Shown: in pieces, positions 7,790-60,185 of the stretch
How the letters are laid out: each line of letters opens with the position of its first letter
Position numbering within the stretch: the first letter of the stretch is position 1
Assembly (NCBI RefSeq): GCF_022919095.1
Contig: NZ_CP095073.1
Location: 3,596,001 to 3,660,000, forward strand
Length of the DNA: 64,000 nt
Source of the DNA: Halobacillus salinarum
GTDB taxonomy: Bacteria > Bacillota > Bacilli > Bacillales > Halobacillaceae
Direction: 5' to 3'
Position numbers and translations under genes: made by a program
Notes under the pieces: generated by a model
What the model was told of the DNA's origin: nothing
Seen by the model: only the letters and a program-made list of their open reading frames with translations
The model's database searches: none

Positions 7790-8016
7790 TTCAATGATAA
7801 AGAGAGTAACTGAACAAAGCGGCAGAAGCGAGTCAGGGATGGTGAAAGCCTGAACCGTGCAATTCAGTGAAGCGGACTTTTGAGAAGCCTTTCCGAAATT
7901 GAGTAGGAACCGGCCGGGGAGACCCCCGTTATTAACTTCGAGTGGCTGTTAAGCTGTAAATAAGAGTGGCACCGCGGGCGTCAACCTCGTCTCTTTCTTG
8001 AGACGAGGTTTTTTAT
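7790..8016 (+). promoter_or_regulatory. T-box leader of argS (tRNA-sensing attenuator)
   Basis: The hallmark T-box sequence AGAGTGGCACCGCGGG lies at 7963-7977, and GAGTAGG-type conserved bases lie near 7901. A terminator with an 11-bp stem (AACCTCGTCTC / GAGACGAGGTT, 7983-8010) and a T-run follows just before the gene. Uncharged tRNA pairing with the T-box bulge would favour antitermination. The triplet CGG at 7873-7875 lies on the expected 3' side of stem I and would be an arginine specifier. I could not fold stem I, so the exact register is uncertain. Confidence 0.9.
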
Positions 8017-31893: not shown

Positions 31894-32070
31894 GACCCCT
31901 TTTCTTATCCAAATAAGAAAAGGGGTCGTAATATCCGTACGATCCTCTCATCTCTTAGGATGCTTACACATCCTACAGGAATTGGCACCGTTCTCTTCAA
32001 TCAGTGATTGAATCGATGGTTGCCGGGCATCAAAGGGCCAGTCCCTCCGCCTCTCTGGATAAGAAGTTTC
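31894..32070 (-). promoter_or_regulatory. SAM-I riboswitch (S-box) controlling msrA
   Basis: Read on the minus strand, the conserved S-box elements appear in order: CTTATCCAGAGAGGCGGAGG (32066-32047), then GGCCCTTTGATGCCCGGCAACC (split over 32042-32019), GGTGCCAATTCC near 31988 and GATGAGAGGA near 31945. A 15-bp terminator stem (GACCCCTTTTCTTAT / ATAAGAAAAGGGGTC, 31894-31927) followed by TTTTTGG completes it. SAM binding would stabilise the anti-antiterminator and stop transcription before msrA. Confidence 0.95.
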
Positions 32071-42587: not shown

Positions 42588-42612
42588 ATGAAGCTCAGCT
42601 ATTGAGCTTCAT
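42588..42612 (-). terminator. Terminator at the end of the exopolysaccharide locus
   Basis: ATGAAGCTCA and TGAGCTTCAT form a perfect 10-bp stem, followed on the minus strand by TCTTTTTTTG. The stem overlaps the last codons of the 42595-43497 gene. Confidence 0.88.
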
Positions 42613-43497: not shown

Positions 43498-43513
43498 AGT
43501 TTTTATAAAGAAA

Positions 43514-43543
43514 GATCCTTCAGGACGAACGCCCTGAAAGATC
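43514..43543 (-). terminator. Terminator after the glmU-like gene
   Basis: The arms GATCCTTCAGG and CCTGAAAGATC pair over 11 positions, with one G-U pair in the minus-strand RNA, and TTTCTTTATA follows. It would limit transcription into the TIM-barrel gene. Confidence 0.75.
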
Positions 43544-43560
43544 CTCCTCCTTTCCTAGAA

Positions 43561-44535: not shown

Positions 44536-44569
44536 CACGATATTTCCTCCATTCTTTTCATCCTCTTTA

Positions 44570-44758
44570 TTAGGCAAGACGACGAGTGTTAATATGATGA
44601 TCCTGGTAGATTGGCTCCAGCCCTTGCATGACTTCCTTCATCATTTGCTGATCGTTTTGGATTTGGTTTTTCTCCACTTTTTCATGAATTCCTTCCATGA
44701 TTTCCAGTAAAGTATCCTTGTCCAAACGCGTCTCTTTGCGTTCTGCTGTTAACGTCAT
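44570..44758 (-). CDS. 62-residue operon-internal protein of unknown function
   Basis: The protein is hydrophilic and predicted helical, with many Glu, Lys and Gln, and has no membrane segment. Its ATG directly follows the glmS stop codon (TAAATG), so translation is likely coupled; a GGTGG lies 5 bases upstream within glmS. It ends 34 bases before the glmU-like gene. I do not recognise it. Its place between two UDP-GlcNAc-forming enzymes suggests a helper or regulatory partner, which is inference only. Confidence 0.65.
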   Translation of the reverse strand: MTLTAERKETRLDKDTLLEIMEGIHEKVEKNQIQNDQQMMKEVMQGLEPIYQDHHINTRRLA

Positions 44759-46591
44759 TTATTCCACCGTCACACTCTTAGCTAGATTTCTAGGCTTGTC
44801 TACATCATTACCTAATGCTAAAGAAGTGTAATAGGCAATTAATTGCAGTGGGATTACGGTTAATAAAGGCGTAAGAATGGAGAAAGCAGCTGGGATGAAA
44901 CACGTTTCATCTACGTAATCCCAGATTTTCATATCTCCTTCAACCGCAATACCAAGAACTTGTGCGCCACGCGCTTTTACCTCTTTAATATTTCCGAGCA
45001 TTTTCTCACTTACAGCTTCTTGAGTCATTAATGCCACTACAGGAGTCCCTTCTTCAATCAAAGCAAGAGTCCCGTGCTTTAATTCGCCCGCTGCATACGC
45101 TTCAGAATGAATATAAGAGATTTCTTTAAGTTTAAGAGATCCTTCAAGAGATACAGCATGATCTGCTCCTCTCCCAAGGAAGAACACGCTGTCTGCATCT
45201 TTGATGGATTCTCCGTACCATTGAATTCCTTTGGTATGTTCAAGAATTTCTTCTATTTTCTCCGGAATGGCTGTAATAGCCTCTACCAGCTGTTCCTTAA
45301 ATTCATCATTTAAAGTTCCTTTGGCTTCGGAAAGGTAAATGCCTAACAGATAAAACGACAGCACTTGAGTCGTATAAGCTTTCGTAGAAGCAACCGCAAT
45401 TTCCGGTCCTGCCATAGTTAATATGACTTCATCCGCTTCCCGAGCAATAGAACTTCCTACTACATTCGTAATCGCAAGTACATGGGCACCTAAGTGCTGG
45501 CTTTGTCTTAATGCTGCTAGAGTATCCGCTGTTTCTCCGGATTGGCTGACTACAATGACGAGTGTTTTTTCATCAATAATCGGATTTCGATAACGGAATT
45601 CAGAAGCTACTTCGACCTCTACTGGAATTCTTGTTAATTCTTCGATCACATGCTTACCGATCAGGCCGGCATGATAAGCTGTTCCGCAAGCGACAATAGA
45701 AATCTTATTCCAATTTTTGATTTGTTCATGCGTCCAGTTTAATTCTTCAAATTCAACTTGTTTAGCTTCCTTATTTAAGCGCCCTGTCATCGTCTTTTCC
45801 AAAGCTTTCGGCTGTTCAAAAATTTCTTTCAGCATAAAATGATCGTAACCATTTTTCTCGGCCTGTTCCATATCCCAGTTGACTTTAAATATTTCACGCT
45901 GAATCGAATTCCCGGAATCTACTCCTAAAAGAGTGACCTCTTCAGGAGTAATGACGGCCATTTCCCCATCGTTAAGAATGTACACGTCACGAGTATATTC
46001 TAATACTGCTGGAATATCTGAACTGATGAGGTTTTCTTCTTCGCCAGCCCCGATGATTAATGGGCTGTCCTGCCGTACGGCATAGAGCTTTTCAGGTTCA
46101 TATTGGGAAACAATCCCTAGTGCATAGGCACCTTCAAGCTCACGAACTACTTTTTGAATAGTAGATACCATATTTCCATCAAACAGATCAGAGAACAAGT
46201 GGGAGATTACCTCGGAGTCAGTTTCTGATTGAAATTTATATCCTTTTTCAATCAGGTCTTTTTTAATTTGCAGGTAATTTTCAATGATTCCGTTATGAAC
46301 AACAGCAAATTCTTTTTGAGAATCGGTGTGGGGATGGGAGTTCTCATTCGATGGGCGTCCATGCGTCGCCCACCGTGTATGACCAATCCCTACAGTCCCT
46401 GCAACTGGAGATTCTTTCACTTGACTATCAAGATCAGAAAGTCTTCCTTCTGTTTTTCTTACATGAACGGATTCACCGTCATGAACTGCTATCCCTACTG
46501 AATCGTAACCTCGATACTCAAGCTTTTTTAACCCTGCAGTTAGAATGTTTTGTGTCTGTTTCGTACCAATATAACCAATGATTCCGCACAT
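44759..46591 (-). CDS. glmS: Glutamine-fructose-6-phosphate aminotransferase (isomerising)
   Basis: The protein has 610 residues. The catalytic Cys2 is at the N-terminus (MCGIIGYIG), followed by a GATase-2 domain (about 1-220) and two SIS domains with SQSGETADT and SLEGSLKLKEISYIHSEAY. It makes glucosamine-6-P from fructose-6-P and glutamine. Only 51 bases separate it from the dehydrogenase gene, so there is no room for the glmS ribozyme that precedes housekeeping glmS in Bacillus. This copy therefore escapes that feedback, which fits a dedicated polymer pathway. GGGAG precedes the ATG. Confidence 0.94.
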   Translation of the reverse strand: MCGIIGYIGTKQTQNILTAGLKKLEYRGYDSVGIAVHDGESVHVRKTEGRLSDLDSQVKESPVAGTVGIGHTRWATHGRPSNENSHPHTDSQKEFAVVHNGIIENYLQIKKDLIEKGYKFQSETDSEVISHLFSDLFDGNMVSTIQKVVRELEGAYALGIVSQYEPEKLYAVRQDSPLIIGAGEEENLISSDIPAVLEYTRDVYILNDGEMAVITPEEVTLLGVDSGNSIQREIFKVNWDMEQAEKNGYDHFMLKEIFEQPKALEKTMTGRLNKEAKQVEFEELNWTHEQIKNWNKISIVACGTAYHAGLIGKHVIEELTRIPVEVEVASEFRYRNPIIDEKTLVIVVSQSGETADTLAALRQSQHLGAHVLAITNVVGSSIAREADEVILTMAGPEIAVASTKAYTTQVLSFYLLGIYLSEAKGTLNDEFKEQLVEAITAIPEKIEEILEHTKGIQWYGESIKDADSVFFLGRGADHAVSLEGSLKLKEISYIHSEAYAAGELKHGTLALIEEGTPVVALMTQEAVSEKMLGNIKEVKARGAQVLGIAVEGDMKIWDYVDETCFIPAAFSILTPLLTVIPLQLIAYYTSLALGNDVDKPRNLAKSVTVE

Positions 46592-46642
46592 ATGTCTTCA
46601 TCTCCCTTACATTAATAGTGATGGTGAAAAAAAGGCCCCGAG

Positions 46643-47998
46643 TTACAATGCAATAGAATTATGACGCTTGTTTACTTTCGTCGCCGTACCAAGCTTGTGG
46701 ATATGCGGCTTATCAAATTCAGTAAACGCATTTCGTGTATCAACGATCGGTACTCCAAGTTCAGCTAGCTCTACATAATCAAAGTCGCTATGATTAGTCA
46801 CTAGAACCATGCAGTCATACTGTTTGAAATTCTCTTTGTTATAAGAAACCGAATGAACAATTTCCCCGTCTCCACCAATGAAGCTGTGAGCATGTGGGTC
46901 ATAGTAATCTACGTTTGCTCCGTTTTCTTTATAGATTTCATAAAGGTACAGACCTGGAGACTCTCTCAAATCACTAATGTTCGGCTTATAAGCCATCCCA
47001 AGAATGAGAATCTTTGAGCTATTGATGGAACGACCGTACAGGTTAAGGACTTGAGAAGTCTTCCCTGTTACGACTTCCGGCATGTTGTTATTAATAGATT
47101 GGGCAAGATCAATAAATTTACTATAAAAGCGGAATCCTTTTGCCTTCCATGATAGATACATAGGATCAAGCGGGATACAGTGACCTCCAATTCCAGGTCC
47201 TGGCTGAAACTTCATAAATCCAAATGGTTTGGTTGCAGCTGCATTAATGACTTCCCATACGTCAATATCCATCCGCTCACACATCATGGCAATTTCATTG
47301 ACAAAGGCAATATTAATACTGCGGAATGTATTTTCCAGAAGCTTTGACATTTCGGCCACTTTAGGAGAAGAGACGCGTACCACATTGTCCAGCATATTGC
47401 CGTAAAGCTCGGCACCAAGCTCGCTGCACGTATCAGTCATACCTCCCATAACCTTTGGCATATTTTGAGTGTTGAACTGTTCATTACCAGGATCTACACG
47501 CTCCGGGGAATAGCATAAGAAAATATCTTTTCCGGATTCATAACCCATTTTGTGAAATTCCCTGTAAATAAGTTCTTCTGTAGTTCCAGGATAAGTCGTA
47601 CTCTCCAAAGTAATGAGCATGCCTTTTTTCATATGAGGCTTCATATTCTCTATTACCCCGGTAATATAGGAAGTATCAGGATCCTGATTTTCACTTAAAG
47701 GGGTCGGAACACAAATGCTGACTGCGTCTAATTCTTTTACCACTTCGTAATTCGTCGTTGGGAGAAAGCGGTTGGTAGCAAGACAATGCTGCAGATCCTC
47801 ATCTGAAACGTCATTAATATAGGATTCACCTTGTTGAAGGGATTGAACTTTATCTTCATCCAGGTCAATTCCACAGACCGTATAACCGGCTTTCACCATT
47901 TCTACCGCCAGCGGCAATCCGACATATCCCATGCCAACTACTCCTACATTAACTTTCTTCACATCAATTTTTTGCTTAAGTTGTTCAACATATCCCAT
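46643..47998 (-). CDS. UDP-N-acetyl-hexosamine 6-dehydrogenase (WbpA/WecC type)
   Basis: The protein has 451 residues. VGMGYVGLPLAVEMVKAGY is the NAD-binding loop, STTYPGTTEE the middle segment, and PGPGIGGHCIPLDP holds catalytic Cys274. The GGHCIPLDP form is typical of enzymes that oxidise UDP-GlcNAc or UDP-ManNAc; UDP-glucose dehydrogenases have GGSCFPKD. The product would be UDP-GlcNAcA (or ManNAcA). With glmS and the glmU-like gene in the same operon, it points to an acidic amino-sugar polymer. AAAAGGGG precedes the ATG. The exact epimer cannot be told from sequence. Confidence 0.9.
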   Translation of the reverse strand: MGYVEQLKQKIDVKKVNVGVVGMGYVGLPLAVEMVKAGYTVCGIDLDEDKVQSLQQGESYINDVSDEDLQHCLATNRFLPTTNYEVVKELDAVSICVPTPLSENQDPDTSYITGVIENMKPHMKKGMLITLESTTYPGTTEELIYREFHKMGYESGKDIFLCYSPERVDPGNEQFNTQNMPKVMGGMTDTCSELGAELYGNMLDNVVRVSSPKVAEMSKLLENTFRSINIAFVNEIAMMCERMDIDVWEVINAAATKPFGFMKFQPGPGIGGHCIPLDPMYLSWKAKGFRFYSKFIDLAQSINNNMPEVVTGKTSQVLNLYGRSINSSKILILGMAYKPNISDLRESPGLYLYEIYKENGANVDYYDPHAHSFIGGDGEIVHSVSYNKENFKQYDCMVLVTNHSDFDYVELAELGVPIVDTRNAFTEFDKPHIHKLGTATKVNKRHNSIAL

Positions 47999-48025
47999 TT
48001 CAAAGTCCCCTTTTCATAGAATTTA

Positions 48026-48862
48026 TTATTCACTTACTGCTTCTGCTTTATTTTCAAGAACTTTCTTAATACGTGCTTCGAGCTCAATAAGCGAGAATGG
48101 TTTCGTAATATACTCCGAAACTCCATATTCAAAAGTCCGCTTAATATCATGCTCAAGCTGCTTGTTTGTCAGCACCATAATTTCAGAGGAACCTTTTGTA
48201 TACGTATCAATATTTCTAATTTGATTAATAAATTGATACCCATTTAAAGCAGAAAGATTGATTTCAGTAATGACGAGGTCAGGAAGAATCTGTTCATATT
48301 TTTCAATCCCTTCTTTACCGTCAACAGCTGTATGAATGATGTAACCTTTTCTTTGGAAGTATGACTTTAACAACTGATGAATACTGTCATCACTGTCTAC
48401 TAATAGGATGGATGGCTTCCAATCTTCTGTTCCAGACTGACTTGAATAAATGCGAATATCATGTTGTGTGGCTTTACTCTCTACCAGTTCCCATATCATG
48501 CTGAACAGCATTTGCTCGGATTGTTCCCGGCTTTTTGTGAAGCTGTTTACTAATATAGGTCCTCTAAGCTTGTCATGGTTTTCCAAATATTCTTTAACAT
48601 GGAGAGAGTAATAATGAGTAAATCCAAGACTGCAGCCATCGAGGATGATTCCAGCCATACCTTCAGCACGGTCATAGCTGACTTGAACTTTTACTTCTTG
48701 TTCCTCTTGTTCCAGATGGTTTTTTAATTTATCCACCCAGCCTTGGTTCAAGTCTGCCCTGCAGATAATAACGCCGCATGAAACGCTGTTTGCCTGATAG
48801 TTTTGAATAAAATGGTTAAAGGTTTGAATAATCCTTGAACCTACATTTTCCTTTTGAGCCAT
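48026..48862 (-). CDS. Pseudo-receiver protein with divergent N-terminal domain
   Basis: The protein has 278 residues. The C-terminal REC domain (about 150-270) has the acidic pair (LLVDSDDS) and the conserved Lys (ITKPFS), but the phospho-accepting Asp is Glu: VITEINLSALNG, E200. That can mimic a permanently phosphorylated state. The first ~130 residues show VQVSYDRAEGMAGIILDG followed by helices and may be a degenerate GGDEF-like fold; this is weak. No DNA-binding domain is present. GGGAGGTAAAGG precedes the ATG. It lies between the glycosyltransferase and the dehydrogenase, so it may modulate the synthase. Confidence 0.8.
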   Translation of the reverse strand: MAQKENVGSRIIQTFNHFIQNYQANSVSCGVIICRADLNQGWVDKLKNHLEQEEQEVKVQVSYDRAEGMAGIILDGCSLGFTHYYSLHVKEYLENHDKLRGPILVNSFTKSREQSEQMLFSMIWELVESKATQHDIRIYSSQSGTEDWKPSILLVDSDDSIHQLLKSYFQRKGYIIHTAVDGKEGIEKYEQILPDLVITEINLSALNGYQFINQIRNIDTYTKGSSEIMVLTNKQLEHDIKRTFEYGVSEYITKPFSLIELEARIKKVLENKAEAVSE

Positions 48863-48883
48863 TCTCCTTTACCTCCCTTATGG

Positions 48884-50304
48884 TTATGCTGACTTTTTGT
48901 TTTCCTCATCCCAGCTGGTTCGCACCATGGTACCCCATGAGTTGTTCTTTCTCATAAAATCAATATGTCCTAGAAAGCGCCATAAAATCCCAAGCTGGCG
49001 GTATCCAAAAAACATGAGGATCGTATAAAACAGCATTTTGAAATAGTGTCGAATTTTTGGATACCTTTGAAACGCCATTTCTTCTAACAACAACGACCCT
49101 AATCCAAGCAGGGTACCGTATAAAACGTTGATTAATCCAAACACAGCCATGATCTTCCAACCTGACATATCCATTAAGCTGTAGCCGACAAGTGCCAAAA
49201 AACCAGTAATTCTAAAATAAGGGCTGAGCGTTTCAAAAATTATATTGTAAGGAATGGTTAACCATCCCATTACTTTGTACTTCGGCCTCATAAACATATA
49301 CATGCCTTCTTCAAGCATATTTTTCAGATTTCCGCGGCCCCAGCGTTTACGCTGACTGCCAAGAACCTTGAAGGTATCCGGCGCCTGCGTCCAGCAAACG
49401 GCATCCGGGCAGAAATCAATTTTATAAGGCAATTTATTATCCAGCATATACCGGTGAAGCTTGATGATAATGTTCATATCTTCCCCAGGGTAGCCGCCTC
49501 GATATCCGCCGACTTTGATGACATATTCTTTCTTGAAAACACCAAATGCACCAGAAACGATAATTAATCCATTGATCGCGCTCCATCCGATTCTTCCCCT
49601 AGAAAGGCTTTCATATATTCCACGGTTTGAAGCATAGGGAGCAGTTTCTTTGGAGGCTTTACTTTTTTCACCATGCCATTTTCTATGTGGCAGCCGTTGG
49701 CGATTCTGACATTCCCTCCAATAGCGACGGATTCTTCGGGATTTTCCATATACTTTCTCGCAATTCTGATTAGAGCATCCTGCTCAAGCAGGGAATCTGC
49801 ATCGATGGAAGAAATAAGCGAATAATTCGAAACATTGATTCCTGCATTTAAAGAATCTGCTTTTCCGCCGTTTTCTTTATCCACAACGTACAGATTTGGA
49901 AAATCAGGATTGTAATAGATTCCCCGGACATCGGCTGTCTTAATGATTTTCTTAACCATTGAAGGTTTTTTGTAAGCGAGTTTAAATTCATCAATTAATA
50001 CGTTCAACGTTTCGTCAGAGGAACCGTCGTTTACGACAATGACTTCAAATTCCGGGTAGTGAAGAGCAAGCAGGCAGCGTACATTTTCCTTAACCGTGAG
50101 CTCTTCATTAAAAGCCGGAACAAGTATTGAAATCGGCGGGACTTGCTTGGAGCCCGAAAGCGACTCATATTTTGAATAAACCGTTCCTTTAATAATTCCA
50201 AATATCTTCTTGAACGAAAAGAGAATGATAGTGAAGTAAATGCTGTTGATGGCCAGGACGTAATACATCGCGAATACTCCATAAGCCAGTAGAATCTCTC
50301 TCAT
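48884..50304 (-). pseudogene. Processive GT2 family glycosyltransferase, frameshifted
   Basis: Two frames together encode a membrane glycosyltransferase of about 473 residues. The first part has an N-terminal membrane helix, VNDGSSDE and SIDADS (the two Asp motifs that bind UDP-sugar). The second has GAFGVFKKEY, YPGED (base) and QRKRW, the product-binding motif of processive synthases like IcaA/PgaC and hyaluronan synthases, followed by four or five membrane helices. The frames join if the G-run at 49596-49599 (plus-strand CCCC) had one more base, giving AFLGGRIGWSAING. It is the only synthase of the operon, so a true lesion would inactivate polymer formation. AAAGGAG precedes the ATG. Confidence 0.88.
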
Positions 50305-50321
50305 CGAATGCTCCTTTCAAG

Positions 50322-51488
50322 TTATATAGCTTCCACAAGCGAACGATCTTTTCCGAAGAATTTTTTATACAGAAACTGCTTTTGGTTGAAATGATTTAGT
50401 TGCTCGACATCTTCTTCAGCGTTTTCATATTGGTCAAGTTCTTCGTGGACCGCATCCAAAGCGATTTTTGAGCCTGAGGCACTGTCCGTTTCCAATGCTG
50501 CTTTACAAAGAATCGAAAACCCAACGTTGCCAAGTCCAAGCAGACTCTTTGCACAAGTCCTTGCTACCTCAAGATTGCGGCTGTGAAGTCCTTCCTCCAG
50601 AAGTTCAGTAAACCGAAGCTGTTCCGTTTCGCCGATCCATTCGAAGATCAGCATCCGTACCTGGTCGTCGGTCGCTTTCGCAAGGGTAACTACTTCTTTC
50701 GCTGACAATGCCATGGATGCTGTTAGGATTTGGATGGTCAGCATTCTAGTAGCTTTGTCATTAGAAGTCATTAATTTCCTAACGGAGGCAGGTACTTCCG
50801 GCCCCACTTCATCCCGTAAACCTATAAGTCCGACTTTTATAAGAGCAGGGTTTTGGGAAGTGAGAAACCTGAAATAACACTCTTTTAAATCGACTGACGC
50901 TTCTTTCGCAATATCAGCAAGGAGCTGGTACGTACTCTTCTTACCGTCCGCCAGATATTCAAGCATCTCTCCCACTTCCTCCGGCTTCTCTGAAGCCTGG
51001 GCAATGGAGCGTCCGATGATGTAAATAGTAGAGTCAAATTTATTTTTTCGGAGCAGCGTGAACAAATGTGGAACTGCAGGTGTATGTCTCATCGTCCCAA
51101 GATAGTAAGCTGCATCGATGCGGTTAATATGCATCGAACTGTTCAGCCGTTTAAGATTAAAAGCTGTCAGTCCCATATCCTCACACAATTGAATGAGTTT
51201 TTCCTTGTGTATTCCTGATAATCGATTAATCCATTCGGAAAGCAGTTGCTGAAAGACTTTCCTTTCAAATTTATTTAAGGCACTTGCCGGCGGCTGAATG
51301 TCCTCTCTAAGGTCCATAGCTGTTTGTACGTAATCTAAATAATTTTGATGTTTCTGAAGACACTCCTGGGTTTTCTTTTCTTTTCTTATCTTGCCGATTT
51401 TTATTGTCAAAGTAATCGCCATGATCACTGCCATAAGAGTGAGCAGAATGACAGCCATTCCCATAGCTAGCTCTAGATTTACAAACAT
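50322..51488 (-). CDS. Membrane-anchored HEAT-repeat protein
   Basis: The protein has 388 residues. An N-terminal membrane helix (about 8-30) is followed by a coiled, basic stretch (KIRKEKKTQ) and then alpha-helical repeats of HEAT type, for example AAYYLGTMRHTPAVPHLFTLL and VGLIGLRDEVGPEVPASVRKL. Such proteins often sit beside GT2 synthases of Bacillaceae and may act as scaffold. The gene is 17 bases upstream of the GT2 gene, with AAGGAGG before its ATG. No catalytic motif is seen. Confidence 0.82.
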   Translation of the reverse strand: MFVNLELAMGMAVILLTLMAVIMAITLTIKIGKIRKEKKTQECLQKHQNYLDYVQTAMDLREDIQPPASALNKFERKVFQQLLSEWINRLSGIHKEKLIQLCEDMGLTAFNLKRLNSSMHINRIDAAYYLGTMRHTPAVPHLFTLLRKNKFDSTIYIIGRSIAQASEKPEEVGEMLEYLADGKKSTYQLLADIAKEASVDLKECYFRFLTSQNPALIKVGLIGLRDEVGPEVPASVRKLMTSNDKATRMLTIQILTASMALSAKEVVTLAKATDDQVRMLIFEWIGETEQLRFTELLEEGLHSRNLEVARTCAKSLLGLGNVGFSILCKAALETDSASGSKIALDAVHEELDQYENAEEDVEQLNHFNQKQFLYKKFFGKDRSLVEAI

Positions 51489-51506
51489 AATATCCTCCTC
51501 CTTCCG

Positions 51507-53657
51507 CTAATCTATTGATTGAAATGCTTTTTTTAATAGTTTATAGCCTGCTTTTTTCCGTTCTGTGTACTTTACCTTGTCCCAGTTGTCCCACTGATAG
51601 CTTTCAAAGTCAGATACTTGAATGGTATCCATTCCAGCGTAGTCCTCGACTCCGCTCTCTTTTTTTACCATCCACGGCACGAATGTAATGCCTTTGGCAG
51701 TGGCCATAGGTAATTTTTCAGCATTCGCAGATTTTTCTTTATAACTCACAACCTGGTGTCTGCTAGGATCTGAAAATCCTAACAACGCCCAGGGGATTTT
51801 CATTTCAATGATGTCGTCTTTTATTTGCCAAAGAGCCTGTGCACTCGGATTGTCCAATTGTGCTTTTTGCATGTTTCCGACGACAGTTTCTTTAAACGGA
51901 AGCGACATATTGGCTTGCGGGGGCTCTAATTTATGACTAACCGCTAATCTCCACGGTTCAAAGCAATTGTTGTTATTACAAGTGGAATCGGCTTCCTCGT
52001 AGAGACGCTGGTGGAAATCATAATCAGAAGCTATGCGAATTTCTCCCTCTTTTCCTAGATGAATTAATGTTTCCAAACCTTTGCTTAGTTTCTTTCCTTT
52101 CAGCTGCTCAGGCTGCTGAATTCCCCCGTCAATCGTGTCAACTCCAAAGTAGAGCGTATCTTCTTCAGGCTCAAAGGAGCGAGCCAGCTTAGCTGTGATA
52201 TAAACAAATCCCTCATCATGGCTCACTTGCATACGATTAATAGTATTGGAAGACACATCCATTTTTTGCTTTTCATCATCCGGCAGCTTTTCCCAGTCCT
52301 GCTGCTTGCCGTCAATTTTAATTTCATCTGTCTTTTCAGGATCCATCGCAAGCACACCAAAGGACATTTCAGGAGATAAATCATTGTACCAGCGTGGTCT
52401 GCTGCTCGATTTGACAAATGGCATTGTATTCCATGTTTTCTTAAACCACTCATCCTGCCAGCTGAACAGAACGGCTCCTGCATAACCTTCGTTGTGAATT
52501 TCTTTTAATAAAGCGGCATCTTGTTTTCCTTGTTCCTTCTCACTGTGGCCGCCCTGATCTCGACCAAGATTTCCAAAATGTGCATTACCAAGTGATGAAG
52601 GAACACCAAATTCTGTAATCATGACGGGGATATCTTTATGATATTTTTTTAGATCCTGCAAGTAGCCTTTATAAGTATCTGTTTTACCTTGACTATTTTT
52701 TACATCCTCATATTTATCCGTCTCGTTTAAAAAATCCGGATAGTAAGGATAAGCGTGAAAAGAAGCAAAATAACCCGCCTGCCAATTTTCCACGTTTAAA
52801 TGAGTGGCATCTACACTTACGGAATCTTCACTCGGTAGAGGTTCATTCGGATGTTCAAGAGGATCAGTGGTGATCCAGTTCGTAAATGTTAACGGATGCT
52901 GCCAGCCCTTAATAGCTTCTTTTCGTGCCGTGTAGTTCAGAAGCTCGGCAAGCCAGCTTTCGAATGGAGAAGCTGCTTTCTTTGCCGATATCTTTGATCC
53001 GTTAAAAACTTTTGCTTGTTGATTTTTTTGATTGGTACTCTTCACAATTTTAGGATTCCATTCTGTCCCAACGTGCCAAGCTATTAAATACGGGCTTGCA
53101 TCCGCTGTGTATTTTCCACTAGCCTTTCCAGGATTATCCGGAAGCGTCACACTTCCATAAACAGCTCCAATAGCATGATCGATCTCTTTTTTAAATGCTT
53201 TTGTAACTTCTTCTGAAGAGGCATTCTTAGTTTTATTCATCAAGTTGACGGGAGACCATATGCCTTGCATGAAATAGAGTGGATCGTCCTTATTATCCTC
53301 GTTGAATTCCACAAGCGCCTCGTAAAACACAGGTTTATGAATGGTATAAATGCGTATGGTGTTGACCCCCATATCTTGAATCATCTGAAACCAATTCATA
53401 TAATCTTTTTTCGATATGGGCATCTCACCTGGGAAATGTCCAGGTAAAGTAGCTCCAAGATTTACTCCTTTTATAAAAAATGGAGACCATGATCCATCCT
53501 TGTAGATTTGAATTTTTTTATCTGACGTCTTGAATTTGATGTGTGTGCCGTCTTGAATCTGTTTGCTCTCTGTTACAGATTGCGTACTGAGAAACACATA
53601 GCTCCCAATTCCAATAATCACGAGTAATATGGCAGCTGCTTTACCCTTCCACTTCAC
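51507..53657 (-). CDS. Membrane-anchored glycoside-hydrolase-like protein with C-terminal CBM9-like domain
   Basis: The protein has 716 residues. A signal-anchor helix lies at about 7-28. A TIM-barrel domain of clan GH-A type (about 50-440) begins with FFIKGVNLGATLPG. IAWHVGTEW has a Glu at the acid/base strand and PVMITEFGVPSS a Glu at the nucleophile strand. The C-terminal part (about 460-690) starts IKIDGKQQDWEKL and resembles CBM9/DOMON sugar-binding sandwiches. It may trim or release the secreted polymer. The GTG at 53657 has GGGGGAAG about 9 bases upstream; the open frame to 53729 is less likely. First gene of the exopolysaccharide operon. Confidence 0.78.
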   Translation of the reverse strand: MKWKGKAAAILLVIIGIGSYVFLSTQSVTESKQIQDGTHIKFKTSDKKIQIYKDGSWSPFFIKGVNLGATLPGHFPGEMPISKKDYMNWFQMIQDMGVNTIRIYTIHKPVFYEALVEFNEDNKDDPLYFMQGIWSPVNLMNKTKNASSEEVTKAFKKEIDHAIGAVYGSVTLPDNPGKASGKYTADASPYLIAWHVGTEWNPKIVKSTNQKNQQAKVFNGSKISAKKAASPFESWLAELLNYTARKEAIKGWQHPLTFTNWITTDPLEHPNEPLPSEDSVSVDATHLNVENWQAGYFASFHAYPYYPDFLNETDKYEDVKNSQGKTDTYKGYLQDLKKYHKDIPVMITEFGVPSSLGNAHFGNLGRDQGGHSEKEQGKQDAALLKEIHNEGYAGAVLFSWQDEWFKKTWNTMPFVKSSSRPRWYNDLSPEMSFGVLAMDPEKTDEIKIDGKQQDWEKLPDDEKQKMDVSSNTINRMQVSHDEGFVYITAKLARSFEPEEDTLYFGVDTIDGGIQQPEQLKGKKLSKGLETLIHLGKEGEIRIASDYDFHQRLYEEADSTCNNNNCFEPWRLAVSHKLEPPQANMSLPFKETVVGNMQKAQLDNPSAQALWQIKDDIIEMKIPWALLGFSDPSRHQVVSYKEKSANAEKLPMATAKGITFVPWMVKKESGVEDYAGMDTIQVSDFESYQWDNWDKVKYTERKKAGYKLLKKAFQSID

Positions 53658-53809
53658 CTTTTTCTTCCCCCTTTCATAAAAACTCCTGAAATATTCCCAA
53701 TAAATTACCAGTTGAAAAATTAATACCAAACGGTTAACTTGAAATTGTCATTTTCTTTGCCCACATTTAACCTATCACGGACCAACCGTACGTTCATCGA
53801 AAACTAAAG

Positions 53810-53835
53810 TTCGGAACTCCGAATTTCTATTTCGG
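53810..53835. promoter_or_regulatory. ComA-box-like palindrome with third half-site
   Basis: TTCGG-AACT-CCGAA (53810-53823) is a perfect inverted repeat with a 4-base spacer. A third TTCGG follows at 53831-53835. The B. subtilis ComA box is TTGCGG-N4-CCGCAA, with a further recognition element next to it. The site lies about 150 bases upstream of the exopolysaccharide operon and about 240 bases upstream of the divergent TIM-barrel gene. A ComA-type regulator is encoded 2 kb away. The 11-mer AAAGTTCGGAA that starts here recurs at 60330-60340 upstream of comQ. Confidence 0.5.
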
Positions 53836-53969
53836 TACCCCCACATTTTCAGACCCGGTTTTTGGATTTTTTCCAAACTTTGCGAAATGTGCATGGATCA
53901 TAAAAAGACCAAGCTTACAATAAATGAAACGCTTACTTTTTTTGCCCTTGATCCTCAGGGAAACCCCGG

Positions 53970-54005
53970 ACATACCGAAACGAAACGCGCACATACCAAA
54001 CGAAG
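53970..54005 (+). repeat. Direct repeats spaced by two helical turns upstream of the TIM-barrel gene
   Basis: ACATACCGAAACGAA (from 53970) and ACATACCAAACGAAG (from 53991) are 21 bp apart, so a protein bound to both would sit on one face of the DNA. CGGTAC-like words recur nearby (53778-53786, 53833-53838, 54011-54016). They lie 60-95 bases before the ATG at 54064, where an activator would bind. Confidence 0.5.
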
Positions 54006-54063
54006 TTGAACGGTACTTTTAAAGAAGACGATTGGTAAAAAATTCTACTTGGAGGGTAAAATA

Positions 54064-55755
54064 ATGAAGCAAACGATGATCCCCTTGATTCTTCTACTCA
54101 GTTTTTCCTGGGTTTTAGCAGGTTTTTCAAATCCTGATCAACACCATAAAGCGATGTGGGTAGAAAAATCAGAATGGAACAAAGAAACGGATAACCTATT
54201 ATCTAAAGCTAAATCAAACGATATCGATGTTCTTTACTTGAAAGCCAATACCGACATCCCAGCAGATCAATACCAACAATTTATTCAAAAAGCATCCAAT
54301 AATGGGATCGCTGTTCACGCTTTAAATGGAGAACCTTCTTGGGCGCTGAAAGAGAACCAAGGTAAAATAAAATCCTTCATCCAATGGGTAAAGGATTATA
54401 ACCAGTCCGCAGCCAAGAATGAAAAATTTAAAGGGGTTCACTTTAAAATTCAACCTCAATATTTAAGTGAATGGTACAGTAATGCAAAAGATGTAAGGAA
54501 GCAATGGAAGAATAATGTCACATTCATAAACGAGCAGACCGCTGACAGCAGTTTGGAAGTTAGTGCTTCAATTCCTTTCTGGCTGGACAACACCCCGACC
54601 CCGGGAAACAGTGACGTCCCGTTCAGCACCTGGCTAATTAAACATTTTGACCATACGGCCATTCTTGCCTATCGGGATACACTGGAAGGGGACAATGGCA
54701 TTGTCACTCTTGTAAAAGATGAGCTGAATGCAGCAGATAAAGCAGGGAAACAAATCATGGTCGGTGTTACATTGAAGGATACCGGAGACGATTACACGAC
54801 CTTTTATGAGGAAGGCGTAGATGACATGGACATGCATCTTTCGTTGATCGATGAGTACCTTGGCAAATGGTCCTCTTATGTAGGAAAAGCCATTGATAAC
54901 TTTAAATCCTATCAAGTGAAGGCAGCTGAAAAGGAAACGCCTTCAGCGGAATCTGAGGATACTAAAAAACGGGGCACGTACATCTGGCACGCAGACACCT
55001 TGATTTCCGAGCAGGACAGCATTATCGAATTTGCTAAAGAAAAAAATATTAATATGCTGTATACAAGACTGGATCTTACTCAGCCGTTTAGTGCTTATCA
55101 GGATTTCGTAGAGAAAGCGACAAAAGCAGGAATTGAAGTTCATGCCATGGGCGGGCACCCTACTTGGGCACTTGAAGAAGGAAAACCTCATATTGAAAAG
55201 CTTGTAAACTATGTAAAAGACTACAACAGCCAGTCTGCTGACAGTCAGAAATTCACAGGAATACACTTGGATATTGAACCGTATGTAAACCCGCAATGGA
55301 CTTCTAACGAGCAGGAAGTTCTTAAATCCTGGATGAAAAATATTACTATGTTTGAAGAGGAAACGAATAAAGCAAATTTAGAGTCCAGTATGGATCTAGC
55401 CATGTGGTTTGATGATACGAAGACTCCTGGTCACCCGGACACACCATTTAATAAATGGGTCATCGAAACGGTCGACCATGCTTCTGTGATGGCCTTTAGA
55501 GACTTCGCTGAAGGTTCAGGCGGAATCGTGGACATGGCTGAAGACGAAGTGAAGTATGCAGACGAACTAGGAAAGGATATTATTATTTCCGTGGAAATGA
55601 AAGATGTTCAAAATAAGGACATCACATTCCATGACGAAGGAAAAGAAAAAATGAAAAAACAGCTTCATACTGTAGAAGATAATTTAAGCAAATATTCTTC
55701 TTATAACGGTTACTCTATCCACGCTTATAAGTATTGGAAAAGCGCTAAAGAATAA
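54064..55755 (+). CDS. Secreted tandem-duplicated GH-like TIM-barrel protein
   Basis: The protein has 563 residues: a signal peptide (about 1-20), then two homologous domains of about 265 residues, each like the single-domain protein at 42595-43497. Domain 2 keeps GIHLDIEPY and VMAFRDF. Domain 1 has GVHFKIQPQY, so the acidic pair D/E is replaced by K/Q, and it is probably inactive and binding only. The start is ATG at 54064 with GGAGGG upstream; a TTG five codons earlier is in frame. It diverges from the exopolysaccharide operon and shares the regulatory region. Likely acts on or binds the secreted polymer. Family not recognised by name. Confidence 0.75.
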   Translation: MKQTMIPLILLLSFSWVLAGFSNPDQHHKAMWVEKSEWNKETDNLLSKAKSNDIDVLYLKANTDIPADQYQQFIQKASNNGIAVHALNGEPSWALKENQGKIKSFIQWVKDYNQSAAKNEKFKGVHFKIQPQYLSEWYSNAKDVRKQWKNNVTFINEQTADSSLEVSASIPFWLDNTPTPGNSDVPFSTWLIKHFDHTAILAYRDTLEGDNGIVTLVKDELNAADKAGKQIMVGVTLKDTGDDYTTFYEEGVDDMDMHLSLIDEYLGKWSSYVGKAIDNFKSYQVKAAEKETPSAESEDTKKRGTYIWHADTLISEQDSIIEFAKEKNINMLYTRLDLTQPFSAYQDFVEKATKAGIEVHAMGGHPTWALEEGKPHIEKLVNYVKDYNSQSADSQKFTGIHLDIEPYVNPQWTSNEQEVLKSWMKNITMFEEETNKANLESSMDLAMWFDDTKTPGHPDTPFNKWVIETVDHASVMAFRDFAEGSGGIVDMAEDEVKYADELGKDIIISVEMKDVQNKDITFHDEGKEKMKKQLHTVEDNLSKYSSYNGYSIHAYKYWKSAKE

Positions 55756-55773
55756 GCTGTTTTGAATTCATTT

Positions 55774-55808
55774 AAGGCTGTCGGGATAGTTCTCGACAGC
55801 CTTTTTTT
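55774..55808 (+). terminator. Terminator of the tandem TIM-barrel gene
   Basis: AAGGCTGTCG and CGACAGCCTT form a 10-bp stem, followed by TTTTT. Confidence 0.9.
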
Positions 55809-55852
55809 CATTGGGTATTTCCATAGCTTAGTCCGCACTTCTGTACACAAAA

Positions 55853-55877
55853 ACGTGCAGAGAAATTCTCTGCACGT
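55853..55877 (-). terminator. Terminator of the comQXPA operon
   Basis: ACGTGCAGAGAA and TTCTCTGCACGT are perfectly complementary. On the minus strand the stem is followed by TTTTTG. It lies about 95 bases after the comA stop. Confidence 0.85.
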
Positions 55878-55970
55878 CAGCGTTGTGGGGAAACCATCCT
55901 CTTTCCTCAAGATTTTCATTTTGCCATCAGGAGCGAATGATTCTTTCCTTTGTACTTGAAGTGGCTTTTT

Positions 55971-56630
55971 CTAATCTATTTCTTCTGGAAGAATGCCCCA
56001 TTGTTTCGATTTCAGTACTGCTTCGGCTCTCGTTTTCACCTGCAGCTTTTTAAAGATTTCTGTCAGATTATATTCGATGGTTCGAGGGCTTTTGAAAAAT
56101 TCTTTAGCAATTTCCTTGTTGCTTTTTCCCTTTGCTACTTCTTTCAAAATTTCCTGTTCTTTAGAGGTTATGGAAACCTCCTCCATCATATCCTTGCTTT
56201 GTTTTTCCTCTTCCACACGTACTTCCATTTTTCGAAGCTGAGCGAATAAGGAGACAGGCACAATTGATTTCCCTTGAATGCCGCATCGAATGGCCTGAAT
56301 CAGATTCTCTCTTGATTCGGTTTTACTAATAAATCCTGAAACCCCCGCTTCAACTAACGTATTGAAATACGGTCCAATATCATAGCCGGTATAAATAAGG
56401 ATCGGGTTCTCATTTCCTGTTGAACGCATTTTCTTACTTAATTCAATTCCATTCATTCCCGACATTCTAAGATCAAGCAGCATAATATCAAACGTTTTCT
56501 TTCCAATGATTTCAAGTGCCTCCCCTGGAGACTCCACATTCGTTACAATCATATCTTCTTCTTTCTCAATCATGAGTTTCGTCCCCGCTCCTACAGAAGG
56601 GTGATCATCCACCAATAGAATTTCTATCAT
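55971..56630 (-). CDS. comA: ComA-type response regulator (NarL/LuxR family)
   Basis: The protein has 219 residues. The receiver domain (about 1-120) has the acidic pair DD8-9 and phospho-accepting Asp53 (LLDLRMSGMNG), with Lys in ISKTES. The C-terminal LuxR-type helix-turn-helix (about 150-210) reads SITSKEQEILKEVAKGKS, then NKEIAKEFFKSPRTIEYNL. It is the last gene of a cassette with comQ, comX and comP, which supports the ComA assignment over DegU or other NarL members. AAGGAAG precedes the ATG. Targets are unknown but may include the exopolysaccharide operon 2 kb downstream. Confidence 0.9.
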   Translation of the reverse strand: MIEILLVDDHPSVGAGTKLMIEKEEDMIVTNVESPGEALEIIGKKTFDIMLLDLRMSGMNGIELSKKMRSTGNENPILIYTGYDIGPYFNTLVEAGVSGFISKTESRENLIQAIRCGIQGKSIVPVSLFAQLRKMEVRVEEEKQSKDMMEEVSITSKEQEILKEVAKGKSNKEIAKEFFKSPRTIEYNLTEIFKKLQVKTRAEAVLKSKQWGILPEEID

Positions 56631-56646
56631 ACCTATCTTCCTTTCC

Positions 56647-58977
56647 TTACATTACTTCAAAGAAATTCTTCATCCGTAAATCCGCCCGGAGAAGAATGGC
56701 AATTTCGACTCCGTCACCGGAAGAAAACATTTCCATACTGCCTTGCATGCTGTTTACACGCTGTTTAATCCCAGCTAAGCCCATACTTTTGGAAGATTGA
56801 TTAGCAGGATCATTTTGAAAACCCACTCCATCATCTTCATAGTTAAGAATGACTAATTCGCCTTCACTTTTTAAATCTAAGGTGACTTTACTTGCTTTGG
56901 AATGTTTGGATGCATTATTGATAAGTTCCTGTACAATACGGTAGATGGTAAGGGACTGATCGTCCCCCAGGTTCGCAGTAAAATGACTGGAAGTAAACGT
57001 TATCTCAAACTGTTCTCTCCCCTGATGCCGGTGTATTAAATAAGTGAGCGCTTCTACTACCCCGGTTTCTTTTAGAAAAGGAGGCCTTAGCAGGGTACAG
57101 GTTTCCCTGATCTGCTGAACGACACCAAGCAATCCTTCACGTATTTGCTCGAGATGTGGAGTATAGTGGACTGGAAAACTCTTATCTTCGATAAATTCAT
57201 CAATTTTCCGGTACCACACTAATTGCTCCTGCAAAGCAGAGTCATGAAGATCACTGGCAAGCCTGGACCTCTCTTTTTCCGACAAATTAAACAGTAAACG
57301 CAGCATCCAAGCTGGAGTATCCTGCTGCTGATGCATGGATTGTTTTAATTCTTCCGTTACTCCTTCAATAAGCAGAAAATTCTCATAGACCATGCTTGTA
57401 TAATGGGATAAAGTTTTCAACCACCTTTGTTCATCCTGGTTGAAAGGCGTATAATTAATTTTTTGGTCGATCCAAAGAAGTCTGATTGATTCCTGCCTTT
57501 CACTTATGACGTAGCATATCCCCTGGTCAACGAAGAAAGAATCACTCGTCTTAAGCTCCGCTTGTTTATAATGAAGAAAACTTTTTATAAGCTGGATTGG
57601 AAATTCATAGTCCCCATTTTCCAGTTTCACAAAGCCATCTTTTTTTCGATAAGTTAATAGAGATACTGAATTTACAGGCAGCACATCCCTGATCTCTTCT
57701 ACTAATCTTAGATCCAGTTCTTCCCGTTTGACGATCTTGGATAAGTCCTTTGCAAAACGGTCAATACTCATTTGGAAATTAAATTTGTCCCTGAACAATA
57801 ATGGTCGTAAGTTCAGCTTTTCCTCTAAATAGAAAAAAACGACCATGGAGACGTAAATAATGATCATCAGTCTCGCCCACTGAATCCAAGTTAAATTCAC
57901 AAAAAATACAAAGAGACCGACAATAATCGTCGTTAAAAGTAAAGAAACAAGGGAGTAATAGCGAAGTCTGCTGTTAATAAAGTCAATATCGAAAATTCGG
58001 TTTGTCATAACCAAATAAAAGAAAAAGATCGGCAGAAAAATCAAAAATGCAGCAGTCACTGAAGGAGGAAGCAGTTCCACCCCAAAGATCGTACTAGGAA
58101 GCACCGTCAAAAAGATAAATGGAAAAAAAGAAATGATAATACTAAAAATCGTATTTTGAAAAATGGGCTTATGTATGGTTTTTCTGAAACGAAAATAATA
58201 ATACAAAAGCAGGAATAAACCAAGCAGCATTTCTAAAGAAAACAGCATCAGCTGAAGGTTTCGAATAATGGAATAGACACCACCGATGAAAACAAACATA
58301 GAAATCGTATCTAAAAGTACAGTGGTCAAGTTGATGATGTAAAGAAACAGCAGCAGACGCCCTTGAATCAGTTTAATATTGTATCTGGCAAAGTATTGAT
58401 AATAAAAATGCAAAAACAGGACTGGAACACACAGTAAGGAAAACCCATTCATAAACCTTCCGATATAATCCGTACGTGCAGAGGCTCCGGCACTTAAGTA
58501 ACCCAATCCTACTGCAAGCAGCAACGCGATCAGGTAAAGAGAGAGCTTTTCATTATTTTTTTTATAATAAATATATACCGACAAGACAAATAATACAGTA
58601 AACACTAGAAAAGGGATGACCGTGTGATAGAGCAAAGTGTTGTAATTCAATGGTTCCTGAACTTTATATTCCAACACTTCTCCGTCTCTCAAGACCTTTA
58701 ACTGATCCAATTTGCCAATGACCCCATATTTCTTAATTGAGGAGTAGAATTCAGGGGGCTGATGGTTTACTTCAAGGACGATATCGTCCGGTTCAACCTT
58801 TCGCTTTTCAGCCCATCCTATTTGGTCTACAGCAGTAATCTTCCACTGATCATCTTCTGTTTTTTTAACATCAATCCCTGCATACGTAACGGAAAGAGTA
58901 ACGTATATTAAATAAAGTGCGATTAAGCAAATACCCGCAAAAAAAAAGATCGGTTTCTTGTTGTCTACTTTTTTCAT
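56647..58977 (-). CDS. comP: ComP-type membrane sensor histidine kinase
   Basis: The protein has 776 residues. The first helix (about 10-31) is followed by an extracytoplasmic PDZ-like loop (about 35-110, with AVDQIGWAEKRKVEPDDIV). About nine more membrane helices follow up to residue 385, then a cytoplasmic part. The phospho-accepting His578 is in KERSRLASDLHDSALQEQ, and HATPase motifs INNASKHSK and DDGVGF complete it. This is the ComP layout for sensing prenylated ComX pheromone. AGGGGGAAGGG precedes the ATG. The membrane part is expected to be strain-specific. Confidence 0.92.
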   Translation of the reverse strand: MKKVDNKKPIFFFAGICLIALYLIYVTLSVTYAGIDVKKTEDDQWKITAVDQIGWAEKRKVEPDDIVLEVNHQPPEFYSSIKKYGVIGKLDQLKVLRDGEVLEYKVQEPLNYNTLLYHTVIPFLVFTVLFVLSVYIYYKKNNEKLSLYLIALLLAVGLGYLSAGASARTDYIGRFMNGFSLLCVPVLFLHFYYQYFARYNIKLIQGRLLLFLYIINLTTVLLDTISMFVFIGGVYSIIRNLQLMLFSLEMLLGLFLLLYYYFRFRKTIHKPIFQNTIFSIIISFFPFIFLTVLPSTIFGVELLPPSVTAAFLIFLPIFFFYLVMTNRIFDIDFINSRLRYYSLVSLLLTTIIVGLFVFFVNLTWIQWARLMIIIYVSMVVFFYLEEKLNLRPLLFRDKFNFQMSIDRFAKDLSKIVKREELDLRLVEEIRDVLPVNSVSLLTYRKKDGFVKLENGDYEFPIQLIKSFLHYKQAELKTSDSFFVDQGICYVISERQESIRLLWIDQKINYTPFNQDEQRWLKTLSHYTSMVYENFLLIEGVTEELKQSMHQQQDTPAWMLRLLFNLSEKERSRLASDLHDSALQEQLVWYRKIDEFIEDKSFPVHYTPHLEQIREGLLGVVQQIRETCTLLRPPFLKETGVVEALTYLIHRHQGREQFEITFTSSHFTANLGDDQSLTIYRIVQELINNASKHSKASKVTLDLKSEGELVILNYEDDGVGFQNDPANQSSKSMGLAGIKQRVNSMQGSMEMFSSGDGVEIAILLRADLRMKNFFEVM

Positions 58978-59002
58978 ACCCTTCCCCCTGACACAATAGA
59001 TA

Positions 59003-59033
59003 AGAAAAAGCCAGAAGGACTCTGGCTTTTTCT
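59003..59033 (-). terminator. Hairpin attenuator between comX and comP
   Basis: AGAAAAAGCCAGA and TCTGGCTTTTTCT form a perfect 13-bp stem with a 5-base loop, with U-rich sequence inside and after the second arm. It would end most transcripts after comX and leave comP-comA at a lower level. Confidence 0.85.
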
Positions 59034-59041
59034 CAGGTTAT

Positions 59042-59215
59042 TTATTTCCAGTAGCACATTTCGATATTTAAGCCGTTTTGATCTTCGTCTCTTAATACAT
59101 CAAGCAGAGCCGTTTTTTCTAGTTCGGAAACCCCTACGAGACTAAGCTGCCCGTTCTCCAATTTCTCAAGAAGATTGGGATGGTTCCCTACATATTCCAT
59201 CATATTCTTTAACAT
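59042..59215 (-). CDS. comX: ComX pre-pheromone
   Basis: The protein has 57 residues, the usual ComX size of about 55. MLKNMMEYVGNHPNLLEKLENG is split between a helical leader and a variable tail; the C-terminal end NIEMCYWK has a single Trp close to the end, as in ComX, where ComQ prenylates that Trp. AAAGGAGG lies 7 bases before the ATG at 59215; a longer frame would overlap comQ. It follows comQ by 31 bases. The exact mature peptide cannot be predicted, but the Trp-containing last 6-10 residues are expected. Confidence 0.88.
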   Translation of the reverse strand: MLKNMMEYVGNHPNLLEKLENGQLSLVGVSELEKTALLDVLRDEDQNGLNIEMCYWK

Positions 59216-59246
59216 GATTTTTCCTCCTTTATTTAAAACCATCGAC

Positions 59247-60185
59247 TTAAGTGTCTTCCAAGACACTTCTCAGCTTTGCTTTCCATTCATTCTCAGCTTC
59301 TAAATCATCGGCAAGTTGAACGGCTTTTAATTGGTAAAGCCTTTTTACTACTTTTGTGTATTTCAAAGATGATGAATTTTCAAGCCATTGAAACAACTGG
59401 TTCTTCTTCTCTAACAGCATTTCCTTCGTAATCGTTCCTCTATAATAATCTCTAATCCATTGAGCTTGCGGCTCCTTCTCTTGTAACAAGTAAAGGATAG
59501 GTAGAGTTTTTTTCTTATGAAGTAAATCATTTTTTTCATCTACTCTAAGAACGTCATGGAGATCATTATTCAGCTGTGCAGCAATTCCTAAGTACTCTGA
59601 ATAACGTTTGATAATTTCAAACTGCTTTTTAGTAGCGCTGACAGCCCCTAACAGGGAAGCACATGCCATTAGTGAACCAGATTTTTCTTTAACCATTTGC
59701 AAATACCCATCCTCGGATTGAACGTCAGCTGCTAAGTCTTGATGCTGTCCTTGAACAGCTTTTAGAACTTGTTGATGTAAAAGCGAAAGAGACCTTTCTT
59801 TGATGTTCTCTTCCACAGGAGCTTTATGGAGAATATTCATACTTAACATAAGCAGACCTGTAGCAATATTCATAGTTGAAGCGTAAGGGGACTGAGTCCA
59901 GGGCTTATCCCGGGTATCTTGATCCTGCAAATCATCAAAAATATCCAAGGCAAGGATTAACACTTCCACAGCTGCTGAAGAATGAAGAGAAGTTAATTCG
60001 GTCGGATTGAAAAACATCTCGCTATGAAGGTAAGTTAAGGCAGAAAACGAGAAACCTTCCTCCCGTTTATATCGAATAAATGCAGCTGCCTCATTGACAA
60101 GTGACTCGTTCCTCCATGTTCTCTGTAACGAATGGATCATAACCTCTTCCATGGCCACAGCAGTATGGCTAGGAATCCTTCCCAT
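59247..60185 (-). CDS. comQ: ComQ isoprenyl transferase
   Basis: The protein has 312 residues of the polyprenyl synthase fold. The first Asp-rich motif is FDDLQDQD (D84, D85, D88) and the second is NDLHD (207-211). The normal second motif DDxxD is altered to ND, as seen in ComQ. It prenylates the Trp of ComX and probably processes or exports it. AGGAGG lies 6 bases before the ATG. First gene of comQXPA. No degQ gene was found upstream. Confidence 0.92.
   Translation of the reverse strand: MGRIPSHTAVAMEEVMIHSLQRTWRNESLVNEAAAFIRYKREEGFSFSALTYLHSEMFFNPTELTSLHSSAAVEVLILALDIFDDLQDQDTRDKPWTQSPYASTMNIATGLLMLSMNILHKAPVEENIKERSLSLLHQQVLKAVQGQHQDLAADVQSEDGYLQMVKEKSGSLMACASLLGAVSATKKQFEIIKRYSEYLGIAAQLNNDLHDVLRVDEKNDLLHKKKTLPILYLLQEKEPQAQWIRDYYRGTITKEMLLEKKNQLFQWLENSSSLKYTKVVKRLYQLKAVQLADDLEAENEWKAKLRSVLEDT

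Follow-up and report, generated by a model that had tools for sequence, protein, structure and literature searches.

What does a ComQXPA quorum-sensing system control when it is found outside Bacillus subtilis? The published census of such loci (Dogsa et al. 2014, PMC4008528) gives, in its available text, loci and not targets. The question is raised by a 64,000-nucleotide (nt) stretch of Halobacillus salinarum DNA (NZ_CP095073.1, positions 3,596,001 to 3,660,000; hereafter the window), which carries comQ, comX, comP and comA, in that order, as four adjacent genes on the minus strand at 60185-55971. Our preferred answer, which we consider probable from comparisons of sequence, is that these genes belong, with a linked exopolysaccharide operon, to a co-inherited module of ~17.6 kilobases (kb; window 42595-60185) in which the operon is under ComA control. 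The gene order, the conservation of the module, its co-occurrence with ComX and a conserved promoter block all come directly from computation, and the module supplies a named, testable target in cultured halophiles. A first-pass annotation of this DNA had called the genes correctly but overstated their novelty; what merits further study here is the adjoining polysaccharide operon, which that annotation had missed, and the ComA-like block linked to it. The signalling genes and the block are as follows (aa, amino acids).

59247-60185, minus strand: comQ, ComX isoprenyl transferase (312 aa; FDDLQDQD present; PF00348 (polyprenyl_synt), 79.3 bits)
59042-59215, minus strand: comX, pheromone precursor (57 aa; tail NIEMCYWK; PF05952, 66.3 bits, cut-off 25)
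59001-59035, minus strand: terminator-like hairpin between comX and comP (stem includes GCCAGA/TCTGGC)
56647-58977, minus strand: comP, sensor histidine kinase (776 aa; HATPase_c 34.4 bits, HisKA_3 23.7 bits)
55971-56630, minus strand: comA, NarL/LuxR-type response regulator (219 aa; Response_reg 91.1 bits, GerE 56.4 bits)
53797-53823, minus strand: conserved promoter block TTCGGAGTTCCGAACTTTAGTTTTCGA, candidate ComA site between divergent units

Gene order around comQXPA in related genomes

The comQ-comX-comP-comA order was found again in related genomes, so it is not a matter of chance. Together with the gene calls and the Pfam matches, this recurrence bears out the earlier description of a complete set in the usual order, with its FDDLQDQD-bearing ComQ, its 57-residue ComX ending in CYWK and its LuxR-type ComA all present as claimed. 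Across the whole genome (4,240,228 bases), a single place matched PF05952 (E 2.9e-17), and it is comX, with AAAGGAGG immediately 5' of its ATG. The HisKA_3 score of ComP falls marginally below the Pfam cut-off of 24, and its N-terminal half is hydrophobic as judged by eye. Identity to the proteins of a halophile clade is 51-59% for ComP and 65-75% for ComA. Between comX and comP, a GCCAG/CTGGC stem with a T run was present in 7 of 12 halophile loci inspected (the window, L031, L033, L035, L036, L037 and L046), and this hairpin could set the expression of signal relative to receptor.

The first-pass annotation had proposed checking whether ComQ groups with housekeeping polyprenyl synthases. The genome encodes three PF00348 proteins, among them ComQ, HepT and IspA. 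In a 78-row tree, the window ComQ fell among ComQs, within a 12-row halophile clade (support 100/99) of Pontibacillus, Halobacillus, Salibacterium, Aquibacillus and Gracilibacillus, and not with the genome's own HepT and IspA, which lay outside the ComQ clade, long branches leaving their exact placement unsure. The set is thus outside the B. subtilis group, as had been said, and its nearest relatives are halophilic Bacillaceae. It shares with B. subtilis comQXPA the four genes, their order and strand, a PF05952 ComX with a C-terminal Trp, a PF00348 ComQ, a HisKA_3/HATPase kinase and a NarL-type ComA. It differs in sequence, with 27% identity for ComQ to that of a B. subtilis-group locus (L068) and 38% for ComA, and in the polysaccharide operon linked to it, which has a candidate ComA block of its own, with TTTCGG-type half-sites.

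A comQXPA set outside B. subtilis is not in itself new. Twenty such loci were published in 2014 (PMC4008528), and ComX was detected at E ≤0.001 in 52 of 397 genomes of the order, 49 of which exceed the Pfam cut-off; within the window's own family, 3 of 44 genomes are ComX-positive. The present locus resembles the non-B. subtilis-like clade of that census in lying outside B. subtilis and in its divergent ComX. Unlike it, the window has a linked target candidate, whereas the census text, in the portion available, names no linked target operon and none of these halophile genera.

Comparison of the flanks of seven halophile loci, including the window, brought out shared genes beyond comA. We then compared the window with 12 related ComX-positive stretches of 19.5-19.9 kb each, from three families, with Pontibacillus, Salibacterium and Halobacillus among the relatives that carry the module. 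All 12, and the window, have the same order beyond comA: a convergent protein, then a divergent operon encoding a glycosidase-like protein, a HEAT-like protein, a GT2 synthase, a receiver protein, a uridine diphosphate (UDP)-sugar dehydrogenase, GlmS, a GlmU-like protein and a barrel protein of ~300 aa. The convergent protein adjoins comA in the halophile-clade loci, where it is 47-61% identical and 560-641 aa long, with a second copy in two genomes (G136 and G076); none stood beside comA in the other ComX-positive loci compared, mostly covered for ~1.5-3 kb beyond comA. In two of the relatives, G213 and G258, the receiver protein is short.

The first gene of the operon, assigned by position in the relatives and then confirmed by sequence search, tracks ComX closely. 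Its module type was found in 12 of the 397 genomes of the order (803-1652 bits, 51-58% identical, the query itself excepted), all of them ComX-positive; it was found in none of 345 ComX-negative genomes and none of the 40 other ComX-positive ones. The next score group comprises 126 further genomes at ≤513 bits, mostly with open reading frames (ORFs) of ~1,040-1,130 aa and some of 700-820. Two ComX-negative members of module-bearing genera (G160 and G161) are without the high-scoring gene, as are all 16 other members of the family in the 397-genome sample, five of which have a low-scoring relative. The association of the gene with ComX gives a Fisher p of 8e-12, a statistic that is blind to kinship.

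Trees of ComQ, ComP, ComA, the first operon gene and the dehydrogenase (13 taxa) gave tree-distance correlations of 0.77-0.96 over the ten pairs, the highest being that of ComP with the first operon gene (0.96). Such correlations are what joint inheritance would give, but they do not prove it. Each of the five trees places the window outside a group of Salibacterium, G403 and G405, as an earlier branch; the family's own three therefore do not form one clade, which points to transfer or uneven loss. The module seems to sit in differing surroundings, for the pair of window genes that precede comQ is matched nowhere in the few kb compared on that side of comQ in six of six related loci. It may be a case of a signal and a possible public good moving together.

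The promoter block and other candidate ComA sites

Between the divergent units, TTCGNNNNTCCGAANNNNNNTTTTCGA is exact in all 14 aligned regions (12 genomes, the window and the Aquibacillus locus L156), and the exact block is also present in G186 (L260). Mean pairwise identity is 80% over the 27 columns of the block against 40% upstream (~150 columns) and 53% downstream. A search of the window returned 53797-53823 as the sole exact match. Allowing up to 3 mismatches gave 3 matches where 0.34 were expected; one of them is the exact site read on the opposite strand, and another lies at 32224-32250 with 2 mismatches. Across 282 loci, the exact block occurred in 40, all from genomes with the module, in a set whose ComX-negative loci are few and short.

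The block resembles a ComA site in its architecture. In the window its half-sites read CCGAAA, 5 nt, ATTCGG, 4 nt, CCGAAC, 6 nt, TTTCGA. Inverted hexamers with a 4-nt spacer are present in 14 of 14 loci, the left half-site being ATTCGN in 13 and TTTCGT in one, and the right CCGAAN throughout. The B. subtilis ComA site, in the available text of Wolf et al. 2015 (PMC4797271), is TTGCGG, 4 nt, CCGCAA, followed by an additional direct repeat, the second element of which has T at position 3 of the consensus. The two thus agree in their inverted hexamers, 4-nt spacer and further half-site downstream; they differ in that the block is of TTTCGG type and not TTGCGG, its downstream half-site lies 6 nt away and no clear fourth element is seen. 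As the hexamer differs although the palindrome spacing agrees, we call the block ComA-like and not a member of the B. subtilis consensus. The recognition helix differs too, reading RTIEYNLTEIF in halophile-clade ComA and RSIEYSLTSIF in B. subtilis-group ComA. On comparative evidence, the block may reflect a natural change of ComA site preference.

The B. subtilis box itself has a different distribution. Within the window, 13 matches were found at ≤3 mismatches against 18 expected. In the whole genome, the box was found 113 times at ≤2 mismatches against 77 for a reversed-pattern control; at ≤1 mismatch it was not commoner than the control in two ComX-positive genomes and one ComX-negative genome of the family (7, 5 and 4 in G403, G405 and G370, against 6, 7 and 5). 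Exact boxes were present in 5 of 14 ComX-positive genomes searched. The one exact TTGCGG-N4-CCGCAA in the genome of the window lies upstream of a putative small RNA, and the same genome has a second kinase-regulator pair:

own genome C1:3172647-3172868, minus strand: putative small RNA of ~200 nt (fold z -6.1; also L085 and L130)
L149:5459-8529, own genome C1: second ComP/ComA-like pair, with no comQ or comX adjoining

The 31-nt core of the RNA, TTCCCTCACTCAAAAGTTAACCAGTCGTCTC, is exact in 32 of 37 family matches. Of the 44 family genomes 37 carry it, as do 26 of the 397 from the order; the core pattern was not found in the other 7 family genomes, including all five of g138. The exact box precedes the RNA in 24 of 33 loci (19 of 22 ComX-negative and 5 of 11 ComX-positive). 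We considered this box as a ComA target and rejected it as evidence on ComQXPA, the RNA and its box being present also in genomes without ComX. No Rfam family reached its gathering score in five small-RNA loci; the best matches there were ncr1241, with 25 bits against a gathering score of 60 and owed to the terminator, and TarB, with 17 bits. By eye, no DegQ-like or other short ORF is conserved behind the box. Literature on ncr1241 yielded unrelated papers only, and none on ComA with a small RNA.

A ComA-like regulator of 44-49% identity is encoded in all 44 family genomes (E ≤1e-30), besides the true ComA in the three that are ComX-positive. Genes next to the second pair are ones we take to be sdhCAB, a MarR-type gene and racE. 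The small-RNA box may be the target of this ComA-like paralogue. Extending the argument, we tentatively suggest, as a possibility and not our expectation, that the module is a transferable quorum-gated exopolysaccharide cassette whose ComA half-site has shifted from TTGCGG to TTTCGG and would so be insulated from the resident TTGCGG-reading pair at the small-RNA promoter, giving two parallel circuits one base apart.

The polysaccharide operon and its probable control

The genes beyond comA in the window are the convergent gene and, on the opposite strand, the operon in order from its first gene.

54067-55755, plus strand: protein of ~562 aa, convergent with comA (signal-peptide-like start by eye; ORF from TTG at 54049)
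51507-53657, minus strand: glycosidase-like protein, first gene of the operon (likely GTG start at 53657; Glyco_hydro_72 E 0.003, below cut-off)
50322-51488, minus strand: 388-aa protein (weak HEAT-repeat match, below cut-off)
49564-50304, minus strand: processive GT2 synthase, N-terminal part (frame interrupted after this ORF)
48884-49477, minus strand: GT2 synthase, C-terminal part (in a different frame from the N-terminal part)
48026-48862, minus strand: 278-aa protein with a C-terminal receiver domain
46643-47998, minus strand: nucleotide-sugar dehydrogenase (TIGR03026 416 bits, cut-off 190; 77-82% in 12 of 12 relatives)
44759-46591, minus strand: GlmS, glutamine-fructose-6-phosphate transaminase (TIGR01135 807 bits, cut-off 418)
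43561-44577, minus strand: short GlmU-like uridyltransferase (338 aa; PRK14354 451 bits, cut-off 450, profile positions 2-311 of 447)
42595-43497, minus strand: 300-aa TIM-barrel protein of glycosidase-like fold (predicted model, pLDDT 88)

These functions make a polymer containing N-acetylglucosamine (GlcNAc) and an aminouronate the likeliest product. Among named types, the dehydrogenase scored best with UDP-N-acetylmannosamine dehydrogenases, below their cut-offs, and is probably of the UDP-aminosugar type. The intact GT2 synthase of Halobacillus kuroshimensis (L252) is nearest to PgaC/IcaA (139 bits, below the cut-off of 422) and scored 131 bits with the XrtG-associated synthase (cut-off 364). 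The model of the 300-aa barrel matched many TIM-barrel enzymes at Z 17-20, the C-terminal domain of PgaB and GH18 among the best, and because so many match in that range we assign it no enzyme activity. By eye, the ~562-aa convergent protein shares a sequence pattern with this barrel protein. The predicted model of the glycosidase-like first-gene product (pLDDT 66) was too weak for a structure search. The cluster therefore resembles the pga/ica clusters for poly-N-acetylglucosamine in its GT2 synthase, GlcNAc precursor genes and PgaB-like barrel among the fold matches, but differs in the sub-threshold PgaC/IcaA score, the added UDP-sugar dehydrogenase and the absence of a deacetylase from the Pfam and NCBIfam matches. 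Adjoining the module at 39906-42437 is a subtilase with three cell-wall-binding (CWB2) repeats; among the 12 relatives, only G213 and G258 have a match to it (39-40%) close to the module.

From these parts we infer a working scheme, including its prenylation step, ComA binding, sign of control and polymer. ComQ would prenylate the Trp within the ComX tail, and a short tail peptide would be released and accumulate. ComP would sense this peptide and phosphorylate ComA, and ComA~P would bind the block (53797-53823) that separates the divergent units. There it would control, and most likely activate, the operon that makes an exopolysaccharide of GlcNAc and aminouronate type; the divergent barrel-type gene is perhaps also under ComA.

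Several observations weigh against this scheme. The case for ComA control is built from comparative sequence evidence. The 12 positive genomes are related and do not represent independent events, and the correlated trees of the five module genes may reflect shared descent only. In the block, the half-sites depart from the B. subtilis hexamer TTGCGG, and the third half-site stands 6 nt from the palindrome without a clear fourth. Its spread was judged from 282 loci, and further sites may exist, also in ComX-negative genomes. The block might be read by a different regulator, every family member having an additional ComA-like one. B. subtilis mutants without ComX make thicker pellicles (PMC7463575, in the text available), so the control could be repression. 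Finally, the GT2 synthase gene is split in the genome of the window.

Three other explanations compete with the co-inherited, ComA-controlled module. It is unlikely, in our estimate, that this is an ordinary comQXPA set controlling competence and dispersed genes as in B. subtilis, with the polysaccharide operon a co-inherited passenger. The four proteins are standard family members, linkage is not regulation, and the B. subtilis box exceeds its control in this genome at ≤2 mismatches; against this, the box shows no such excess at ≤1 mismatch in the three family genomes, and the promoter block shows the conservation of a regulatory site and the spacing of a ComA site. We give a lower probability again to the idea that the reader of the block is the ComA-like paralogue resident in these genomes (of the pair near sdh and racE), or some other regulator, with ComQXPA acting elsewhere. 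The paralogue's presence throughout the family speaks for it, and a second ComA-type reader is probable, given that TTGCGG-N4-CCGCAA precedes the small RNA with or without ComX. However, the exact block was confined to module genomes among the loci searched (few and short as the ComX-negative ones were), the two sites differ at position 3 of the half-site, and the two regulators differ in their recognition helix.

The split synthase bears on a third explanation, that the unit is decaying in this genome, its signalling genes open and its output dead. The frame breaks near 49,565-49,600, leaving two ORFs in different frames where 12 of 12 relatives have one ORF of 472-476 aa, and because of this interruption the exopolysaccharide output is possibly off here. 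Yet the other module genes read through, and the difference is small, seen in one assembly, and might stem from an error in sequencing or from a change that can revert; we regard decay as very improbable. ComA control of a co-inherited module is the reading we retain. Among the papers listed in our searches of the open-access literature, which takes in few of the subscription papers, no title or opening of an abstract shows a link between comQXPA and polysaccharide genes in halophiles; two articles mention com genes, in their available text without a polysaccharide link (PMC8389477 and PMC12167742).

The ComX tail and minor features

The first-pass annotation had also called the ComX tail unusual, with Trp one residue before the end and Cys two residues before Trp. 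Trp at -2 is in fact the commonest arrangement, found in 41 of 53 ComX proteins and 64 of 87 distinct tails (a set that omits three rows of the 53, L065, L073 and L078, and the duplicate L104), and we rejected its position as a novelty. Seven of the 87 have the Cys (CYW), every one of them in the halophile clade, and the ending [YF]W[KQ] is common to all 16 distinct ComX proteins compared from halophiles. Nor did the expectation that each set forms its own specificity group find support: the same last five residues, MCYWK, occur in H. kuroshimensis (L157) and in L103, another family member, as in the window, and a pherotype shared among these species is at least as likely as a group of the window's own. 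A search for ComX in viral contigs found none. The Desulfosporosinus precursors (L163, L165, L167 and L171) follow a different tail rule, with Trp itself the last residue (-1).

Elsewhere in the window, a T-box leader (7785-7997, plus strand) and an S-adenosylmethionine (SAM) riboswitch (31945-32065, minus strand) were both detected at Rfam gathering scores.

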